Virus record (IMG/VR): IMGVR_UViG_3300028548_004895
Location: 1-27,765 of that record
DNA: 27,765 nt
Source of the DNA: a virus
Direction: 5' to 3' (one strand)
Below, in pieces: positions 2,645 through 27,765 of this stretch (its first letter is position 1; each line of letters begins with the position of its first letter). A program made the translations under genes and the position numbers. The notes under the pieces were generated by a model, which was not told the origin of the DNA, made no database searches, and was given only the letters and a program-made list of their open reading frames with translations.

Positions 2645-4173
2645 AGCGGGTAACTGCGATTGGTCTGGGGTAACATTATGTGCAGTGCTTTCTTGGTTCT
2701 GGTGACAGCGACGTAGTAAACCCTATGCTCCGTAGCAGGGTCCACCTGATATTCCTTGTGCGCGGCGTAAGACAGATCCGGCACCACCAGAACATTGTCC
2801 GCCTCACCACCCTTCATTGAATGTATCGTGCTAACCTTGATCCGTGGATTGCGGACGTTGTCCTTCCGCTTCAGCGCGTTAAGAACATAGTTCTTGGTGT
2901 CTAGGTCAATCTTCCCCAAGGCTCGATGCCACCGGACAGATCCATCTACGAGAAGACCCATCTTGTCTTGAGCTTCCGACATGCTGATCTGCGCTTCCGC
3001 ATTCAGCCCGGACAATGCCCCAGAACGCGGTCCAAAGCCCCGTGAGTAGCCCTGACCCATACTCATAAAGGAGTAGACGTTCCTGACCTTCGCGGGCGTC
3101 AGCGTCTCTCCCTTGGACCACTGTTCCCAATCGTGAAGTGCTTCGTATGTCTTCCCCGGAATGCTGGGGTGGCCGTTGCGGCTATAGACCCAACCTTCCT
3201 CTCGTAAAGCTTGAGCGTACTGCGCGGCAATCCGGTTTGTTCGAGCCATAAGGCACCATTCGCCCTCATGAAGCGGCACGTCCCAAATATCCTGGTGAAA
3301 CTGAACACTGCCGTCCTCGTCCTTGGGTCGCCAAGACTTCGGAGCGCGGCCCTCTATCTGGCACACAATGTTCTGCGCCTCCTGCCAGACTACGCGAGGT
3401 ACTCGATACGACTGCTCGAGAACGGTCTTCTTCTCCGTAGCATTAAGAAACGCCCCGACATCTGCGCCTTGGAATCCCATAATGGCTTGGTCATCGTCGC
3501 CCGTGAACACCTGTATGCGGGGGTTCTTCCGAAGTACATCGACCATGGACCATTGAAGGGTAGACAGATCCTGAGCCTCATCCACGAACAGGGCTTCTGT
3601 GTTTGGCCCCTCTCCCGATTTAATGAAATTCTCAATCATGTCCGTGAAGTCGATCTTCTTTCGAGCGTTCTTGTAATCGTCATACGCCGCCACCAGACGC
3701 TTGAGCTCAGACCAATCAACTTGGTAGTCGGCCAACTGACGATGCATCTCTTCCAAAGTCAGTCCCTTGCTTCGAGCCAAGTGGTACTGGCTCATGTAGA
3801 AGTCGCCCTTAGCCACCCCTACGGTGTCAAAGTCAGTCTCAACGTCAGACCGACCCTTGTTTCCAAAAGGTATTCCAACAGCGTTACCTATCTCGTTCAT
3901 CTCCTTGGGACCCATAACTTCATCTGAGCTATACCCTCCGGATCGAAAGGCCATGGAGTGAAGCGTCTGGAAGTAAGGCATGTCCCGCTCGTCAATCCCC
4001 CAATCACGGCACACGCGCTCACGGCTTTCCTTTGCAGCCTTCCGAGTAAATGAAACACAGGCAATACGATCAGGCGGTATGCCCTGCTCAATGCAGTCTC
4101 TTATCTTGTTCGAGTTGGTTTGGGTCTTGCCCGTGCCGGGCGGTCCAAGGATGGTTTCATGCTGGTCGGTCAA
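2641..4173 (-). CDS. UvrD/Rep-like SF1 DNA helicase
   Basis: A 510-residue superfamily 1A helicase that should unwind DNA 3'-5' at the phage fork. All core motifs can be read: Walker A GPPGTGKT (10-17), motif Ia SFTRKAA (41-47), motif II VDEAQD (197-202), motif III TGDDDQAI (224-231), motif IV EQSYRVP (253-259), motif V STIHSMKGGEADNV (448-461) and motif VI VYYVAVTRTKK (485-495). It is shorter than bacterial UvrD (about 720 aa) because the 1B and 2B insertions are small, as is usual for phage versions. The start overlaps the primase stop by 4 nt (ATGA). No DnaB-type helicase is seen in the window, so this may be the replicative helicase; that is inference. Confidence 0.95.
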   Translation of the reverse strand: MTDQHETILGPPGTGKTQTNSNKIRDCIEQGIPPDRIACVSFTRKAAKESRERVCRDWGIDERDMPYFQTLHSMAFRSGGYSSDEVMGPKEMNEIGNAVGIPFGNKGRSDVETDFDTVGVAKGDFYMSQYHLARSKGLTLEEMHRQLADYQVDWSELKRLVAAYDDYKNARKKIDFTDMIENFIKSGEGPNTEALFVDEAQDLSTLQWSMVDVLRKNPRIQVFTGDDDQAIMGFQGADVGAFLNATEKKTVLEQSYRVPRVVWQEAQNIVCQIEGRAPKSWRPKDEDGSVQFHQDIWDVPLHEGEWCLMARTNRIAAQYAQALREEGWVYSRNGHPSIPGKTYEALHDWEQWSKGETLTPAKVRNVYSFMSMGQGYSRGFGPRSGALSGLNAEAQISMSEAQDKMGLLVDGSVRWHRALGKIDLDTKNYVLNALKRKDNVRNPRIKVSTIHSMKGGEADNVLVVPDLSYAAHKEYQVDPATEHRVYYVAVTRTKKALHIMLPQTNRSYPL

Positions 4174-5705
4174 AACGGTGGGTCCTCTGGCTCAAAAGTT
4201 ACCTCAGGAAGATCAACCTCTCCTCGATGCATCTCAGGCACACACCAGACACGAACCGACTTCCATTGATCGTTGTTATCTCTAAAGCGATAGGTCTTGT
4301 CGGACTCCGCTCCATTGTTCATTTCTTTTAAACGTTCGGTGATTTGACCACGGGTATACAACGTAAAGTTATTGCGCTTGAGGAAATCCTGTAGAGAACT
4401 AAGCTTGAAGTGCGTTAGGCCGTCCTCTGTCCACGGCTTGCCTGTCAGAAGTTCTTCCGGGCTGTGTGCTTGAATGCGGGACGTGCAGAAGTTTTCTAGA
4501 AGCTCGATAAACAAGCCCTTCTGGGTCAACTCTTCCGGGACAGGTATTCTGGTTGCGTCACTCAGAAGATTGTCCACCAAGTCTCGCCAATCCCCTTCCT
4601 TCATGCGAGCCGGCATCTTGTACATCTGCTCCATGCACGCACGCTGAAATTCAACCTGCATCTGTAGCTGCTTGGTAGATAACTCAAGACGGGCGCCGTC
4701 CACATCCACAAACCAAACCGGAGGCTCTGACTCTACAACCGTCAAGCCACCTACAGGAACGTGGGAGTTGGCATCGCCCACCCCGAACTTACGCGACCGA
4801 CACAGAGACTTGTTGCAGTGACCATGAATTGGTTCCTGCTTGCAGGTATAGAAATACTCTTTCTTTTCCAACTGCTCTTGGATCAAAACAACCTCACGCG
4901 CAGGTAGCGGCGGGTTGCAATAATCCTGGTTGTGCTTCTCAAGCAACTCTTTCCAATCGTTAGGGGCCGCTTGTTTGTAGTAAACACCCACATTGAGCAG
5001 CGTCATGTTGCGGCCACCCTCTGGTATCCCAAACTCTGTCAGCTTTTGTAGGCAAGGGGGTCCGTCAGGCAACACACCGTCATCACCACCCAAGGATATG
5101 TTGGACAACTGCTTGGCAGTGACGCGAGACTTCTCCGCTAAATTTAGAAAACTCTCTAAATCCATTGAGTCCCCGCCTTTTTTCAAAGCGTACCGGGTGG
5201 TGTATTTTGCGTTCTGGTAGGGAAGGTTAATAAAATTCCCCACATCGCCGCGCTCTGCCAGCAATTCTTCCTGCTTTGGAAATATCTCGCAGTTGCCCCA
5301 GCCTAAAACCGAAGCAAACTCTGCCAGCCGGTCGCGCATCTCAGATGCTGCAACCTTCTCTGACATAAATATATATAGGTGGGCGCCGCCAGACTTAGAC
5401 CGGCACAAGATCAGGGGCAGCTTAAACCGCTTAATCTTTGACAATAGTACGGGGAGATCGAGGTTGTAGTCGTCTATGTCCAAAGCCCCGAACATGCACT
5501 TGTTAGTTTCGTCTATGGGGATAGACCCAACGCCAAGCTTCCCGTCCAAGTGTTCTTGAACAAGCTCCACGGTCAACGGCGAACGGACAATCTCGTACTT
5601 TGCCTGTTGCTTACCGTTTTTCTGGCGACCTAAAACGTCTGTCTGTCCGTGGGCTCCTTGTGATCCTAAGAAAAGATCAAGAAACCGCTGTGCTGAGTTA
5701 TCCAT
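4170..5705 (-). CDS. Archaeo-eukaryotic-type primase (AEP, TOTE-like) with C-terminal Cys cluster
   Basis: A 511-residue primase candidate. The N-terminal catalytic core shows the AEP hallmarks: ALDIDDY with the metal-binding D76 and D78, then RSKSGGAHLYIF with H109, and GNFINLPYQ (156-164), which often follows the third motif in this family. The core resembles the primase module of TOTE conflict systems and of many phages. Downstream, PPCLQ (C218), GGRN (230-233), YTC (C288), HC (C297) and LC (C302) give four spaced cysteines. That is similar in layout to the PriL-like iron-sulfur or zinc region of other AEP primases. The final 200 residues are probably helical and unassigned. The gene follows the ssDNA-binding protein gene after a 54-nt gap that holds a strong hairpin, and its stop overlaps the helicase start. 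Confidence 0.85.
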   Translation of the reverse strand: MDNSAQRFLDLFLGSQGAHGQTDVLGRQKNGKQQAKYEIVRSPLTVELVQEHLDGKLGVGSIPIDETNKCMFGALDIDDYNLDLPVLLSKIKRFKLPLILCRSKSGGAHLYIFMSEKVAASEMRDRLAEFASVLGWGNCEIFPKQEELLAERGDVGNFINLPYQNAKYTTRYALKKGGDSMDLESFLNLAEKSRVTAKQLSNISLGGDDGVLPDGPPCLQKLTEFGIPEGGRNMTLLNVGVYYKQAAPNDWKELLEKHNQDYCNPPLPAREVVLIQEQLEKKEYFYTCKQEPIHGHCNKSLCRSRKFGVGDANSHVPVGGLTVVESEPPVWFVDVDGARLELSTKQLQMQVEFQRACMEQMYKMPARMKEGDWRDLVDNLLSDATRIPVPEELTQKGLFIELLENFCTSRIQAHSPEELLTGKPWTEDGLTHFKLSSLQDFLKRNNFTLYTRGQITERLKEMNNGAESDKTYRFRDNNDQWKSVRVWCVPEMHRGEVDLPEVTFEPEDPPF

Positions 5706-5759: not shown

Positions 5760-6518
5760 TCAGAACGGCACTTCTTCGGTAGACTGATCAGTAATTACTC
5801 CGGTGTTTTCCACCGGAGGTGCAATCTTCAACTCGCCGCTGCTGATAGACCCGTGAAGATCTTTGGCTTCTTTGTAGGCCTCAAGAGAAGGAACCTGCCC
5901 CTCAAGAGCTATGCTCCACGAACCCCAAGATCCTTTATCGTTACCATCCTCAACAGATTTTAGGCGATAGGTGTTTGCAAACGATGGCAAAGTCGAACCG
6001 TTGTGCTTCTGCATCATCATCATGGACAACCAAAGGCGGCTCTTCTTCAGCTGCGTCTTCTTCATATCCACGATAGCGTTCTCAAGTCCTCCGTCCTCGT
6101 GGATGATCTTGATATAATGCTGGGCGGTCCGGACCAATTCGTTACCGTTGTTGAGCAACTCCATTCCGGAGTCCTTGTCTCTCGAAGCAGTACGAACCTC
6201 GTCGGAGTCCGCTGACAGTTCGCCCTCAAAGCCACCGCCCTGACTACGCGGTACAAACTCTAGGAACTTCATCTGGAAGAAAACCGGAAGTACCGACACC
6301 CCAGCGTCTGCTTCCCAGACCTTGTTTGTCACGGTATTAAATATGTCGCCCTGCGAGGCCCCCGCAATAAAAGCTGGGTCGTTCTTTTTTAACTGTGGCG
6401 ATAGTGCCTGTATGATCCGCAGAAAAGGTATCTGTAAATCCGAAGATGTTACCTCCTCAAATCCAACACCTGAATCTGCCTCAAACGCTTCTGCTAGTCC
6501 TGCTGGTAATTTAGCCAT
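5760..6518 (-). CDS. Putative phage ssDNA-binding protein
   Basis: A 252-residue protein. It begins with MAKLPAGLAEAFEADSGVGF, has an IPFLRIIQALSPQLKK segment (30-45) and a GDIFNTVT motif, and a mixed alpha/beta core with many Trp and aromatic residues. It ends in an acidic tail with a terminal EEVPF. A C-terminal acidic tip ending in Pro-Phe is the signature of bacterial SSB and functionally similar phage proteins, which use it to recruit other replication enzymes. Position directly upstream of the primase supports a role in coating single strands at the fork. The fold is not a clearly recognisable OB fold from sequence alone, so a RecT-like annealing protein is an alternative. An ATG start at 6518 follows the neighbouring gene by 3 nt. 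Confidence 0.6.
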   Translation of the reverse strand: MAKLPAGLAEAFEADSGVGFEEVTSSDLQIPFLRIIQALSPQLKKNDPAFIAGASQGDIFNTVTNKVWEADAGVSVLPVFFQMKFLEFVPRSQGGGFEGELSADSDEVRTASRDKDSGMELLNNGNELVRTAQHYIKIIHEDGGLENAIVDMKKTQLKKSRLWLSMMMMQKHNGSTLPSFANTYRLKSVEDGNDKGSWGSWSIALEGQVPSLEAYKEAKDLHGSISSGELKIAPPVENTGVITDQSTEEVPF

Positions 6519-16408: not shown

Positions 16409-16425
16409 AACTACTCCTAACGTTT

Positions 16426-16473
16426 GTTGTTGACGTGATCTATTATACATGGGATAACATACTAGTCAACAAC
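16426..16473. promoter_or_regulatory. Face-to-face promoter pair inside GTTGTTGAC inverted repeat
   Basis: GTTGTTGAC (16426-16434) and GTCAACAAC (16465-16473) are separated by exactly 30 bp. The minus-strand promoter is TTGACT (16464-16469), 16 nt, TATAAT (16442-16447). The plus-strand promoter is TTGACG (16430-16435), 17 nt, GATAAC (16453-16458). So the two promoters point at each other and overlap over their whole length, each -35 box lying within one arm. RNA polymerase can use only one at a time. The minus unit serves the zinc-finger gene, the plus unit the 144-aa gene (RBS AAAGGAGG at 16475-16482). Confidence 0.75.
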
Positions 16474-18546: not shown

Positions 18547-18753
18547 ACCCACCCACCTAGCGTCGGGCTGGCGCCGCCGCCCCTCCTCGGGGAGCGAGGG
18601 GTGAGATAGGGTTTTAAATCTATAATACCTCCTAATTATCATTGGACCCTGAACAGTGCTTCAGGCTGAGACCCCCCCACTTCTGTTTTGAAACAATATC
18701 GGCTACAATTTTTTGCATATTTAATTTCATTTGGGTTTCTTGGAGACGGCTTA
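18547..18753 (+). promoter_or_regulatory. Leader region before the large terminase gene
   Basis: This spacer holds a GC-rich hairpin (CCCCTC...GAGGGG), a perfect -10 box TATAAT at 18621-18626 without a good -35, and an AT-rich stretch near the gene. It is a likely promoter region for the late operon, perhaps needing an activator. No gene was supported here. Confidence 0.4.
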
Positions 18754-20214
18754 ATGCTCAATGCTTCTGATGAGGTTATGCGTGAGATTCTTGCTTTAGA
18801 GCAGGCGAAGAAGACGCTTTCTGTTCGAGAGTTGGCTCGCGAGGACTTTATGGTGTTTGCGAAGCATGTGTATGAGGGCTTTATTGAGGGTTCACATCAC
18901 AAGCAGGTGGCCAAGAAGTTTGAGAAGTTGGCCAAGACCCCTGGTTCACGGATCATTGTCAATATGCCGCCTCGTCATACCAAGAGCGAGTTTGCGAGTT
19001 ATTTGTTACCGGCTTGGTTGATAGGCAAGAATCCTAAGTTGAAGATCATTCAGACGACGCATACGGCTGAGTTGGCTGTACGGTTTGGACGTAAGGTAAG
19101 GAACCTTATGGAGTTGGATATTTACAAGGAGATTTTCCCTGAGGTTGATTTGAAGGCTGATTCCAAGGCTGCTGGACGTTGGGAGACGGGCCAGGGAGGG
19201 GAGTATTACGCTGCTGGTGTTGGTGGCGCGATTACTGGTCGTGGTGCGGATTTGTTGATTATTGATGATCCTCATTCGGAGCAGGATGCGTTATCCGAGA
19301 ATGCGATGGAGAATGCGTATGAGTGGTATACGTCTGGTCCTCGTCAGCGGTTACAGCCGGGTGGTTCGATAGTTATTGTTATGACTCGTTGGTCATTGAA
19401 GGATCTTACTGGAAAGTTGTTGAAGGCTCAGAGTTCGGATGTGATGTCTGATCAGTGGGATTTGATAGAGTTCCCGGCGATATTGCCGAGTGGTAATTTG
19501 TTATGGCCACAGTTTTGGAAGAAGGAGGAGTTGTTACGGGTCAAGGCTGCGTTGTCCTTGGGCAAGTGGAATGCACAGTGGCAGCAGAATCCGGTTGCTG
19601 AAGAGGGTGCAATTATTAAGAAGGAGTGGTGGAACGTTTGGGAGAAGGAGGAGATTCCACGGCTTAGTTATGTGATGCAGTCTTATGACACGGCGTTTAG
19701 TAAGAAGGAGACGGCGGATTACTCGGCAATAACGACTTGGGGTGTGTTTGTTCCCAAGGAGGGTGGTCCGGACAACATTATATTGCTGGATGCGAAGCGT
19801 GGCCGGTGGGATTTCCCTGAATTGAAGGCTCAGGCTTTTGAGGAGTATAATTACTGGGAGCCGGACATGGTGTTGATCGAGGCGAAGGCTAGCGGAACAC
19901 CGCTCACGGACGAGTTACGAACGATGGGTATACCCGTTGTGAATTATACACCGTCCAGGGGCAATGATAAGCACACCCGGATGCATATGGTGGCGCCGAT
20001 GTTTGAGTCTGGCAGGGTGTGGGCTCCTGAGAAGAGGTTTTCAGAAGAGGTGATTGACGAGTGCGCGGCGTTCCCTCATGGGGACTATGATGATTACTGT
20101 GACAGCATGTCGATGGCACTTATTAGATACCGTAAAGGCGGCTTTGTTCGTCTTGACACTGACGATGAAGACGAAGAATCTAACTTACTTCTTCATTCAA
20201 GAAGCTACTATTAG
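18754..20214 (+). CDS. terL: Terminase large subunit
   Basis: A 486-residue packaging motor. The ATPase part has IIVNMPPRHTKSEFASYLLP (67-86) as a Walker A-type loop, LLIIDDPH (167-174) as Walker B with D171/D172, and a VMTRW coupling motif (209-213). The nuclease part has QSYDTAFSKKETADYSAITT (309-328, D312), VLIEAKASGTP (373-383, E376) and DDYCDSMSMAL (446-456, D450), an RNase H-like catalytic set. The ATG at 18754 has TTGGAG upstream; a TTG-started upstream extension is not credible. Codons here end mostly in T or G, visibly unlike the replication genes. The gene opens the late operon but is separated from the small subunit by about 4.1 kb. Confidence 0.96.
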   Translation: MLNASDEVMREILALEQAKKTLSVRELAREDFMVFAKHVYEGFIEGSHHKQVAKKFEKLAKTPGSRIIVNMPPRHTKSEFASYLLPAWLIGKNPKLKIIQTTHTAELAVRFGRKVRNLMELDIYKEIFPEVDLKADSKAAGRWETGQGGEYYAAGVGGAITGRGADLLIIDDPHSEQDALSENAMENAYEWYTSGPRQRLQPGGSIVIVMTRWSLKDLTGKLLKAQSSDVMSDQWDLIEFPAILPSGNLLWPQFWKKEELLRVKAALSLGKWNAQWQQNPVAEEGAIIKKEWWNVWEKEEIPRLSYVMQSYDTAFSKKETADYSAITTWGVFVPKEGGPDNIILLDAKRGRWDFPELKAQAFEEYNYWEPDMVLIEAKASGTPLTDELRTMGIPVVNYTPSRGNDKHTRMHMVAPMFESGRVWAPEKRFSEEVIDECAAFPHGDYDDYCDSMSMALIRYRKGGFVRLDTDDEDEESNLLLHSRSYY

Positions 20215-24150: not shown

Positions 24151-26559
24151 ATGGCTAATGAACCGACTTCCTTAATAGATGGAGGAATGCCTTCCGGAGG
24201 AATGCCTCTTGGTGGGCTGTCCGATCAAGAGATCGAAGTAGAGGAGATTGAAGATCCTACTGAGATGATTGAAGAAGAAGACGGTTCGGTTGTTTTGAAT
24301 TTTGGCAATCAGTTTGAATCGATGATGGGGGAAGAACTTCAAACTGATCCCGACGCAAATCTTGCGGAAGTTTTGGACGAACGTGAGTTGATGGATATCA
24401 GTTCGGAACTGATGGGTTATTACGAAGACGACAAAGCTGGACGGCAAGAGTGGGAAGACGCTTATACTGAAGGTCTTGATCTGCTTGGTCTTAAATATGA
24501 GAACCGAGATCAGCCGTTTAGGGGTTCTAGCGGCGTCACCCACCCCGTTATTGCTGAAGCGGTGACCCAGTTCCAAGCGCAGGCTTACAAGGAGCTCCTT
24601 CCAAGTTCTGGACCAGTACGAACCCAGATTATTGGCGCGACGACACCTGAAGTAGAGCAGCAATCTCATCGTGTTCAGGAGTTCATGAACTTTCAGATCA
24701 CTCACGTTATGGATGAGTACGATCCGGAGATGGATCGCCTTCTGTTTTATCTCCCCTTAGCCGGGAGCGCGTTTAAAAAGGTTTACTTTGACGATATTTT
24801 AGATCGAGCGGTTTCTCGTTTCGTTCCGGCAGATGATTTAGTTGTACCGTACAACGCAACGGACCTTTCTTCGGCCTCGCGTGTCACTCATGTCATTCGG
24901 ATGAACACGAATGATGTAAGGAAGAACCAGGCTGCTGGGTTTTACCGCGACGTGGACATTTCAGCTTACCAAAGCGACGACGAAGTTCGTGAAAAGGAGC
25001 GTAGTCTCTCCGGAATTGAGCGAACAGGCGGCGATGATCAGGATTGTACCCTTTTAGAGGTGCATACCGATCTTGACCTCCTTGGTTTTGAGCATGTTAG
25101 CCCTCTTGATGGCGAAGAGACCGGAATTAAGCTCCCCTACATCGTGACTATAGACGAGGGAAGTCAGAAGGTTCTGTCTGTGCGACGAAACTGGAACGAG
25201 GGCGACGAGTATTACAAAAAAATACAGTACTTCTCGCACTATAAGTTCCTCCCTGGCTTAGGTTTCTACGGATTTGGGCTTCTCCACATGATTGGTGGTC
25301 TCGGACGATCCGCCACATCTATTTTGAGGCAACTTATTGATGCAGGTACTCTCGCTAACCTTCCTGCTGGCTTTAAAGCTCGCGGTATTAGGATTCGTGA
25401 TTCTGACGAGCCTTTGTCTCCTGGCGAGTTTCGCGATATTGATGTTCCCGGCGGTGCTTTACGAGAAAGTATTATGCCTCTTCCCTACAAAGAGCCCAGC
25501 CAGACGCTGATGTCTCTTTTAGGGTTTGTCGTGGATGCCGGTCGTCGCTTTGCAGCTATTGCAGACTTGCAAGTAGGGGACGGAAACCAGCAGGCAGCGG
25601 TTGGAACCACGGTAGCTCTTTTAGAGCGTGGTTCTAAGGTGATGTCAGCCATACACAAGCGCCTGCACTACGCACAGAAGCAAGAGTTCAGGATGCTTGC
25701 TAGAGTGTTTGCTGAGTCACTTCCACCCATGTACCCGTATGATGTGTATGGCGCCGAAGCTTCGATTAAACAGACTGATTTCGATGATCGTGTAGATGTT
25801 ATTCCGGTATCGGACCCAAATATCTTTTCAATGTCGCAACGTCTTGCACTTGCCCAGACACAGCTTGAGTTAGCTCAGTCAAACCCGCAAATGCACAATC
25901 TTCATGAGGCGTATCGTCGTATTTATGAAGCGATAGGCGTTACTAACATTGAAACGTTACTTCCTACGCCACAGCCGGCTCAACCAACTGATCCGGCAAT
26001 TGAGAATGCTAAGTCTATCATTCAGGAGGCTTTGCAGGCTTTTCCGACGCAGGATCACGACGCGCACATGACGGCGCACATTATCTTTATGAAGACACCT
26101 ATAGCGGCTTCTTCTCCCCCTATCTTTGCTCTTTTGCAGGCTCATCTTTGTGAACATGTTGCGTTCAAGGCTCGAGGTGTCGTTGACGCTGAGATGCGGT
26201 CCATGATGGAGCAGGCTATGCAGACGGGTCAGCAGCCTCCGCCGGTTGACGTAGAGGCAAAGGTTGCCGAGCTTATTGCTCAGTATACTGAAGAGGTCAT
26301 GTCAACTCTAATGCCGCCACCGGAAGGGGAAGTAGATCCTCTAGTGGAGCTTCGTTCTAAGGAACTGGACATCAAAGCGGCAGATCTACAGCGTAAGACG
26401 AAAGAGTTTGATCAGCGCCTGTTGTTTGATATTGAGAAAGAGGAAGCTAAGGAAGAGATGTCCGCAGAGAAGATTGATTCTCAGGAGGATATTGCCCTAC
26501 TACGTGCAGAGGTTAACCGAGAACGGATTAATCAAGGAACACCGGGAAGAGGTAACTAG
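24151..26559 (+). CDS. Portal protein (P22-like)
   Basis: An 802-residue protein. After an acidic N-terminus (EVEEIEDPTEMIEEEDGSVV) it shows WEDAYTEGLDLLGLKYENRD, FRGSSGVTHPVIAEAVTQFQ, then LPLAGSAFKKVYFDD and VPADDLVVPYNATDL, the hallmark blocks of podovirus-type portals. A VGTTVALLERGSKVMSAIHK helix and a long C-terminal helical barrel (about 660-800) rich in Glu/Gln/Lys follow. The portal forms the 12-fold ring at one capsid vertex through which the terminase pumps DNA. It follows the o-spanin gene by 3 bp. No ribosome-binding site is strong. This gene is the clearest evidence of a tailed phage with a P22- or podovirus-like head. Confidence 0.95.
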   Translation: MANEPTSLIDGGMPSGGMPLGGLSDQEIEVEEIEDPTEMIEEEDGSVVLNFGNQFESMMGEELQTDPDANLAEVLDERELMDISSELMGYYEDDKAGRQEWEDAYTEGLDLLGLKYENRDQPFRGSSGVTHPVIAEAVTQFQAQAYKELLPSSGPVRTQIIGATTPEVEQQSHRVQEFMNFQITHVMDEYDPEMDRLLFYLPLAGSAFKKVYFDDILDRAVSRFVPADDLVVPYNATDLSSASRVTHVIRMNTNDVRKNQAAGFYRDVDISAYQSDDEVREKERSLSGIERTGGDDQDCTLLEVHTDLDLLGFEHVSPLDGEETGIKLPYIVTIDEGSQKVLSVRRNWNEGDEYYKKIQYFSHYKFLPGLGFYGFGLLHMIGGLGRSATSILRQLIDAGTLANLPAGFKARGIRIRDSDEPLSPGEFRDIDVPGGALRESIMPLPYKEPSQTLMSLLGFVVDAGRRFAAIADLQVGDGNQQAAVGTTVALLERGSKVMSAIHKRLHYAQKQEFRMLARVFAESLPPMYPYDVYGAEASIKQTDFDDRVDVIPVSDPNIFSMSQRLALAQTQLELAQSNPQMHNLHEAYRRIYEAIGVTNIETLLPTPQPAQPTDPAIENAKSIIQEALQAFPTQDHDAHMTAHIIFMKTPIAASSPPIFALLQAHLCEHVAFKARGVVDAEMRSMMEQAMQTGQQPPPVDVEAKVAELIAQYTEEVMSTLMPPPEGEVDPLVELRSKELDIKAADLQRKTKEFDQRLLFDIEKEEAKEEMSAEKIDSQEDIALLRAEVNRERINQGTPGRGN

Positions 26560-26561
26560 AG

Positions 26562-26741
26562 ATGGCCAAGAACATGACCCATTACTTTAGGGATGGAACT
26601 AAGCATCCTGGTGAGAGACACAAGATGCCCAACGGCGATCTTCATAGCGGATCCAAACACGGCACTAATAGCAAAAGACTTTATCACTATTCCGAGTTGC
26701 CGTCTGCTTCCGCAAAGAAGAAGGCTAGGAAGAGGGCGTGA
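26562..26741 (+). CDS. Small basic phage protein (59 aa)
   Basis: A 59-residue product starting MAKNMTHYFRDGTKHPGERH and containing KMPNGDLHSGSKHGTNSKRL and a lysine-rich end. The HYFxDGTxHxGxxHKMPNGxLH(S/T)G pattern is one I recall in small marine phage proteins next to portals. An AGAGG ribosome-binding site lies upstream. Two bases separate it from the portal stop, and its stop is immediately followed by the parS site. Its basic charge fits nucleic-acid binding or virion DNA; the role is unknown. Confidence 0.65.
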   Translation: MAKNMTHYFRDGTKHPGERHKMPNGDLHSGSKHGTNSKRLYHYSELPSASAKKKARKRA

Positions 26742-26757
26742 TGTTTCACGTGAAACA
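26742..26757. promoter_or_regulatory. parS: Perfect bacterial parS (ParB binding) site
   Basis: TGTTTCACGTGAAACA is an exact match to the consensus parS centromere site of bacterial chromosomes, a 16-bp palindrome bound by ParB-CTP clamps. It starts right after the stop of the 59-aa gene and ends 2 bp before the next ATG, where a ribosome-binding site would normally be. By simple arithmetic (uniform bases) a given 16-mer is expected about 6 in a million in a window of this size. No parA or parB gene is present in the window, so host ParB is the likely ligand. Confidence 0.85.
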
Positions 26758-26759
26758 GT

Positions 26760-27041
26760 ATGGCCATTAGACGCACTACTACTGGCAAAAGCGCTAACTA
26801 TCGTAAGACCAGCAAGGGTGCTGGGATGACGAAGAAGGGTGTTGCTGCTTATCGCAGGGCTAATCCGGGGTCTAAGCTTAACACAGCGGTTACGGGGAAA
26901 GTTAAGGAGGGCAGCGCGGCGGCAAAGCGTCGTAAGTCCTATTGCGCTAGGTCCGCAGGGCAGTTGAAGAAAAGCTCTGCCAAGACCAGAAACGACCCTA
27001 ATTCGCGTATTCGGCAGGCTCGTAAAAGGTGGAAGTGCTGA
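26760..27041 (+). CDS. Small basic Cys-containing phage protein (93 aa)
   Basis: A 93-residue, Lys/Arg-rich protein: MAIRRTTTGKSANYRKTSKG, then GMTKKGVAAYRRANPGSKLN and GSAAAKRRKSYCARSAGQLK, ending RIRQARKRWKC. The GVAxYRRANPGSKLxTAVT and SYCARSAGQ blocks resemble a marine phage family of DUF6321 type. It lacks a ribosome-binding site because the parS site occupies the 18 bp before its ATG. A role in binding DNA or as a virion component is likely but unproven. Confidence 0.65.
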   Translation: MAIRRTTTGKSANYRKTSKGAGMTKKGVAAYRRANPGSKLNTAVTGKVKEGSAAAKRRKSYCARSAGQLKKSSAKTRNDPNSRIRQARKRWKC

Positions 27042-27253: not shown

Positions 27254-27558
27254 TGGCTGTCCGCAAGACAAAGAAGGGTGCCTCTCTCAAACGTTGGTTC
27301 AAGGAAGATTGGATCGATGTGAGAACAGGTAAACCTTGCGGTAGGAAGAAAGGCGAGAAGAGAGGCACGCCTTATTGCAGGCCTAGCAAACGTGTTTCTA
27401 AGGAAACACCTAAGACATCCGGAGAGTTAACATCGTCTGAGAAAAGGTCTAGGATTAATCAGAAGAAACTTTTGGGGCAACCTCCTGGTGAACCTCGTAG
27501 GGTAAAATCGGTAAAACGCGCTAACCGTGGCGGAATGATGAAAGTGAGGGTCTTTTAA
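27253..27558 (+). CDS. Small basic phage protein, DUF5872-like (101 aa)
   Basis: A 101-residue, basic protein with ASLKRWFKEDWIDVRTGKPC, GRKKGEKRGTPYCRPSKRVS and ETPKTSGELTSSEKRSRINQ. The RWFKExWxDVxTGKPCGR and PYCRPSKRVSxxTPKTxxE order is a strong family pattern I associate with DUF5872. It is coupled by a TAATG junction on both sides. Together with the two preceding genes it forms a set of small basic cysteine proteins, possibly for DNA or virion assembly. Confidence 0.7.
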   Translation: MAVRKTKKGASLKRWFKEDWIDVRTGKPCGRKKGEKRGTPYCRPSKRVSKETPKTSGELTSSEKRSRINQKKLLGQPPGEPRRVKSVKRANRGGMMKVRVF

Positions 27559-27765
27559 TGGCTAAGAGCAGAATGGTTAACCAGATGTCTGAGCAGATGG
27601 ATGTCTCTAAAAAGGAAGCAGGTGGTCTTATGAAAAAGGCAAAGAGTATGAATGATGCCGAAGGTATGAACATGGGTGGCATGATGCGCCGTCCGATGCC
27701 TTCTCCGGGCATGGGTGGCTATGAAATGCGTATGGAAGATGGCGGACTCAGCAAGGGCCAAAAGG
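27558..27765 (+). CDS. Methionine/glycine-rich hypothetical protein (3' partial)
   Basis: The frame starts in a TAATG overlap with the DUF5872-like stop and runs off the window at 27765, with 69 codons visible. The product is Met- and Gly-rich (MKKAKSMNDAEGMNMGGMMR, GYEMRMEDGGLSKGQK), a composition common in short marine phage proteins. The DGG motif near the visible end recalls the one at the end of the leftmost gene. The function is unknown. Confidence 0.6.
   Translation, partial: MAKSRMVNQMSEQMDVSKKEAGGLMKKAKSMNDAEGMNMGGMMRRPMPSPGMGGYEMRMEDGGLSKGQK

Follow-up and report, generated by a model that had tools for sequence, protein, structure and literature searches.

The window analysed here, by which we mean the whole stretch of 27,765 bases, is an IMG/VR fragment of a tailed phage, in which genes for DNA polymerase, primase, and helicases occupy one side and those for the large terminase and portal the other. 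The DNA polymerase of the replication module is encoded at 451-2436 on the minus strand (phrog_17, E = 1e-113), and the large terminase, which marks the genome as that of a tailed phage, at 18688-20214 on the plus strand (phrog_38, E = 6e-109). The portal gene (24151-26559, plus strand; phrog_1216, E = 3e-49) is followed on the same strand by a 59-aa ORF for the 'HYFRDG' small protein (26562-26741), for which no Pfam family was found, by the gene of a 93-aa DUF6321 protein (26760-27041; Pfam PF19846, E = 2.6e-11), and by the start of the gene for the 'QMSEQMD' small protein (27558-27764). Among named phages, HTVC027P, 023Pt_psg01, and DSL-LC04 are the closest, with weak DNA similarity.

Between the 59-aa and 93-aa ORFs, at 26742-26757, lies TGTTTCACGTGAAACA, a perfect 16-bp palindrome, to which no strand is assigned and which matches parS exactly (consensus as used in PMC10197239). 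The TGA of the 59-aa ORF abuts the site directly and the ATG of the 93-aa ORF begins 2 nt past it, the site filling 16 of the 18 bases of the gap. An exact parS consensus in an 18-bp intergenic gap, as described in an earlier sequence-only reading of this DNA, is therefore present. The same reading placed the site where a ribosome-binding site would be expected, which is fair for the 93-aa ORF; the purine-rich AGGAAGAGGG, inside the 3' end of the 59-aa ORF, would instead belong to an ATG at 26741, from which a frame of just nine codons runs. This frame (MFHVKQYGH, 26741-26770) begins within the junction of stop codon and site, after the purine-rich stretch, and is not kept in the related lineage L122, where the first base of the site is C. 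By our own arithmetic with uniform bases, about 6e-6 exact occurrences of a given 16-mer are expected per 27.8 kb. The copy at 26742-26757 is also the sole match in the window at up to three mismatches; since matches of this quality arise in 12 of 100 shuffles of the window, it is the exactness that counts.

The portal protein served as a parS-independent anchor for sampling relatives. Eighty loci were chosen by this protein only (80-100% identity over the best segment), and removal of near-copies (95% DNA identity), with 1.2 kb of downstream sequence required, left 29 non-redundant lineages, in which L275, with a portal protein 100% identical, stands for the window. The site is kept in 26 of the 29 lineages (22 exact and four with one mismatch), at most ~2.1 kb after the portal gene, and the search of close relatives that had been proposed as a check thus turned out in favour of the site. 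None of 186 control palindromes with equal half-site composition occurred in any of the 29 lineages at up to one mismatch, and no other 16-mer of the post-portal region was shared as widely as parS. The median identity at four-fold-degenerate portal codons was ~36%, indicating that neutral sequence has been nearly randomised among these lineages. The comparison indicates that the site is selectively maintained as a DNA site. The three lineages lacking it form one supported clade on the portal tree, as would be expected if the site had been lost once or had moved beyond the limits of the contig.

Several trivial origins of the site were considered and rejected. A chance origin is ruled out by the control palindromes together with the unbiased portal sample, and the ascertainment bias that arose because the first related contigs had been found by the motif itself is removed by sampling on the portal only. 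Inheritance of near-identical DNA is ruled out by the near randomisation of the four-fold sites. Capture of a host fragment bringing the site along is ruled out for this clade, in which the surroundings are phage genes.

The genes flanking the site differ among the lineages. The junctions were of the types A|B, X|B, Y|E, A|E, B|E, and others, where B is the DUF6321 gene and E a small gene, and at least 10 changes of junction label are needed on the portal tree. Homologs of the 59-aa ORF adjoin parS in other lineages too. In most lineages having the DUF6321 gene the site lies directly before it; where that gene is absent, parS precedes the 'QMSEQMD' gene. Lineages without detectable B, C, and D have the site before E, and some have it before further genes that are neither B nor E. 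The clearest relocation was observed in L356, in which the site lies between B and E. We presume that the junction changes are mostly turnover of neighbours and not jumps of the site. An explanation by relocation only would be overstated, as much of the variation is gene turnover beside a fixed site. Judging from these gene orders, retention of the site does not depend on which genes adjoin it, be the changes due to turnover or to relocation. The spacing is usually 0 nt to the stop codon and 2 nt to the start codon, and the distance to the next start ranges from 2 to 26 nt, a variation that makes a role in translation less likely. A narrower pattern (site, two bases, and ATGGC) was found in 97 stretches of IMG/VR, and almost all of those that were examined showed the order of stop, site, two bases, and start in the same small-gene region of the same phage group. 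The layout of parS, 2 nt, and ATG recurs in dozens of contigs.

Copy number and partition genes were examined in 26 records searched whole, namely the window and 25 relatives, which are fragments totalling 495 kb or about eight genome equivalents. Exactly one site was found in 25 of the 26 records and three in one. The record L327 (IMGVR_UViG_3300030117_001716; GC 0.41) has three exact parS, one of them upstream of the portal. The domains ParB_N (PF02195), HTH_ParB (PF17762), and the ParA-type AAA_31 (PF13614) were found in none of the 26 records (495 kb), and the positive controls were detected, in agreement with the earlier statement that neither ParA nor ParB is encoded. Absence from the window only would be weak evidence, since the window is a 27.8-kb fragment, whereas complete relatives are ~58-61 kb in length; the absence is backed by the 25 relatives and by the complete genome of HTVC027P. 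This pelagiphage (SAR11 phage) has one near-identical intergenic copy of the site, CGTTTCACGTGAAACA, at 16412-16427, between gp31 and gp32, in a region different from that of the window clade and near the small terminase, and no ParB_N domain (PF02195) was found in its complete genome. No parS site was found in HTVC023P, HTVC100P, HTVC010P, C75C1, 023Pt_psg01, or DSL-LC04. A self-contained phage or plasmid ParABS has parA and parB on the same genome, and this pair was seen neither in the 26 records nor, as far as PF02195 is concerned, in HTVC027P. What was found is the arrangement of an orphan parS, ParB-target sites on a carrier without parB, the carriers being fragments except for HTVC027P. 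A ParB of the phage's own was likewise rejected as a candidate, none having been detected in the window, the 25 relatives, or HTVC027P; the phage ParB with its own different parS that the sequence-only reading had listed as a check was thus not encountered.

The same 16-mer occurs on chromosomes of marine bacteria. Eighteen of 25 SAR11 genomes, many of them partial, have exactly one site at up to one mismatch, and 15 of the 18 are exact. In all six loci examined, the site lies between an mnmG-like ORF and parA, mostly within an rsmG-like ORF (names from translations). These genomes indicate that the phage 16-mer is a real marine alphaproteobacterial centromere sequence, identical to the single chromosomal parS of SAR11. 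The phage and the chromosomal ParABS thus have in common the same 16-mer, once per genome; the SAR11 copy is placed beside parA, whereas the phage copy is intergenic, by structural genes, and without parAB. SAR11 is the host group of the relative HTVC027P, and the window's own clade may have another host: the GC content is ~51% in the window and 41-52% in the relatives with the site, compared to 36% in the SAR11-phage relative. A portal search of GTDB contigs for the host gave no match, a search of 385 genomes of the class of the SAR11 genome gave distant matches (31-37%) in four only, and no tRNA clue to the host was found. The alphaproteobacterial host assumed in the earlier reading is likely for this 51% GC clade.

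The exact 16-mer is widespread in viral collections. A scan of IMG/VR found at least 120 stretches carrying it, against one for the same palindrome read backwards, and INPHARED contains 286 phage records with it, against none for the reversed palindrome; the notion that the site is unique or rare was thus mistaken. Nine complete cultured site-bearing phages were inspected (phages of Ruegeria, Listeria, Lactobacillus, Butyrivibrio, Clavibacter, Vibrio, Gordonia, and Microbacterium, and phi29), and ParB_N was found in the Microbacterium phage only. Among 50 mixed viral contigs with an exact site, many of them fragments, 47 had no ParB_N at E 0.001.

Some of these carriers show arrangements of their own. 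The unrelated Butyrivibrio virus Arian (MN882551.2; L506) has an exact parS directly after the portal gene (3256-3271) and two further copies, and no ParB_N domain. In Vibrio phage phi 3 (KP280063.1), parS is found at 821-836 and 2934-2949 and again at 109190 and 111303, inside the long terminal repeats, which in a T5-like phage would be the first DNA to enter. Two short viral contigs, L017 (2657-3444) and L044 (10535-11462), have five exact parS each within ~1 kb, mostly outside long ORFs, which are possibly true centromere clusters. A 201-kb viral contig without ParB_N (L069) has exact parS at 4944-4959 and 5819-5834, both within a longer repeat, GATTTTGACAAAATGGAAA ... TCTGCATTGTGTCAAAATGATA. 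Several small ssDNA phages (INPHARED Microviridae) also have exact parS, e.g., MG945405.1 at 4276-4291.

ParB-binding centromeres are familiar from the phage-plasmids P1 and N15 and from mycobacteriophages with parABS. These systems have their own ParA and ParB and a private parS, none of which was detected in the marine clade. A closer likeness is offered by phi29, a podovirus without ParB bearing a chromosomal-type parS: it has four scattered one-mismatch sites, TGTTTCACGTGGAACA, and no ParB_N, and the trapping of its DNA in spores reportedly involves Spo0J (Meijer et al. 2005, cited by PMC9437464). The likeness is limited by the four sites and the spore-forming Gram-positive host of phi29: the marine clade has a single site, its genes are unrelated, and no refuge comparable to a spore is known for it. 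The second comparable case is SGI1, whose orphan parS binds the ParB of the IncC plasmid, stabilising SGI1 and destabilising or expelling the plasmid (PMC10954446). Here too a parasitic element without a Par system of its own has orphan sites for the ParB of another replicon; SGI1, however, mimics the plasmid centromere of its helper, whereas in the marine case the centromere is that of a bacterial chromosome and the carrier is a phage. No description of chromosomal parS in ParB-less marine phages was found in the open-access literature, subscription papers and preprints being outside this scope. A single host-type parS conserved across a marine phage clade therefore appears to be undescribed, while the principle has precedents in phi29 with Spo0J and SGI1 with IncC ParB.

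We consider the site to be an orphan centromere of the chromosomal type by which host ParB is recruited, and on the basis of sequence comparison we put the probability of this at about 0.85. Recruitment of host ParB had already been proposed in the sequence-only reading; the conservation now strongly supports it, and the two precedents show that the idea itself is not new. The 17 ParBs tested in PMC7383237 all share the specificity for parS, and a 16-bp parS suffices to load ParB, after which ParA and SMC are engaged (PMC7383237 and PMC8494293). By extension of this biochemistry, host chromosomal ParB would recognise the single parS when phage DNA enters, would load as a CTP clamp, and would presumably spread, so that the phage DNA is marked like a chromosome origin. 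The marked DNA may then become a substrate for the ParA of the host and possibly for SMC. The phage genome would be held or moved with the origin region of the host and would stay with the viable cell half or in a favoured position, a benefit that we would place in slow or deferred infection.

That selection favours such segregation or tethering over disruption of the host is less certain than the steps of binding, spreading, and engagement of ParA and SMC. Host ParB recruitment with segregation or tethering as its selected use, taken jointly, is still the account that we somewhat favour; tethering or segregation by host ParABS/SMC would be the likeliest use, with diversion of the host system close behind. 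In Caulobacter, a strong plasmid-borne parS cuts viability ~1000-fold, a cost attributed to the plasmid being segregated instead of the chromosome (PMC5815017), and this observation supports both uses. Our leaning to tethering or segregation comes from the single conserved site per genome. Some points count against it. No signs of lysogeny or of a plasmid state were found in the window, so it is not evident what a lytic phage would gain from segregation. Less ParB is probably loaded at one site than at a cluster of sites, and one clade as well as the cultured relatives HTVC023P, HTVC100P, HTVC010P, and DSL-LC04 manage without the site.

The site may alternatively act as a decoy, in which the many parS copies of the replicating phage divert ParB and ParA (and SMC) from the host origin, chromosome segregation and division stall, and resources are kept for the phage. 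The likely hosts have one chromosomal site, which would be outnumbered once a few dozen copies of the phage were present, and, besides the loss of viability in Caulobacter, the destabilisation of the IncC plasmid by extra SGI1 parS copies points the same way. Sabotage of this kind should favour several sites per genome, however, whereas nearly all relatives keep exactly one, and host segregation is of little matter to a phage lysing within one cycle. As the explanation of the site we regard it as possible but rather unlikely, and the effects of decoy and tethering could operate together.

Control of genes is less probable still. Host ParB might spread over the nearby structural genes and silence or time late transcription in the manner of KorB, a ParB-family clamp that silences at a distance (PMC11790492). 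In every sampled site-bearing lineage of the clade the site does lie among late structural genes. The variable spacing to the next start, the changing neighbours, the location of the HTVC027P site in another region, and the scattered sites of phi29 all speak against such a role, which we consider unlikely.

We consider very unlikely an element of translation or RNA, a hairpin or the nine-codon leader coupling the flanking ORFs, with the likeness to parS being incidental. In most lineages the palindrome takes up the space from stop to start codon, a 6-bp hairpin can form in the RNA, and the ATG at 26741, preceded by the purine-rich stretch, opens the short frame. The folding energy is nevertheless ordinary (z = -1.7), variants such as TGTTCCACGTGAAACA break the stem, and the HTVC027P-type variant loses the ATG, which leaves both hairpin and leader peptide weak candidates. 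In addition, the loop ACGT and synonymous positions are conserved though neither hairpin nor peptide needs them, downstream genes and spacing change, and the exact chromosomal parS sequence would remain unexplained. Binding of the same palindrome by a phage-encoded protein for packaging, replication, or regulation, with host ParB irrelevant, has room in the roughly half of the phage genome outside the window and in the many small ORFs without known function, but is barely credible when no ParB-type domain occurs in the 495 kb or in complete HTVC027P and the 16-mer is the universal ParB target, present also in unrelated phages of other hosts.

Whether the orphan parS recruits host ParB can be tested directly in HTVC027P, which has one site and is cultured on the SAR11 strain HTCC1062. 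Easier systems are the cultured phages of Ruegeria, Listeria, Lactobacillus, Butyrivibrio, and Gordonia, in which the site is exact and no ParB_N was detected. We give even odds to a broader proposal, that orphan copies of the chromosome centromere may be a widespread, selected feature of ParB-less phages, marine ones included, by which lytic phages would use host ParABS/SMC for positioning or inheritance, or for takeover of the cell cycle. If the recruitment of host ParB is right, a widely sampled phage group would plug into host chromosome segregation with 16 bases and no protein. Slow-growing marine bacteria show no evident classical lysogeny, and the site would offer a way of explaining carrier states and deferred infection among them; ParABS and SMC would become part of phage-host biology.
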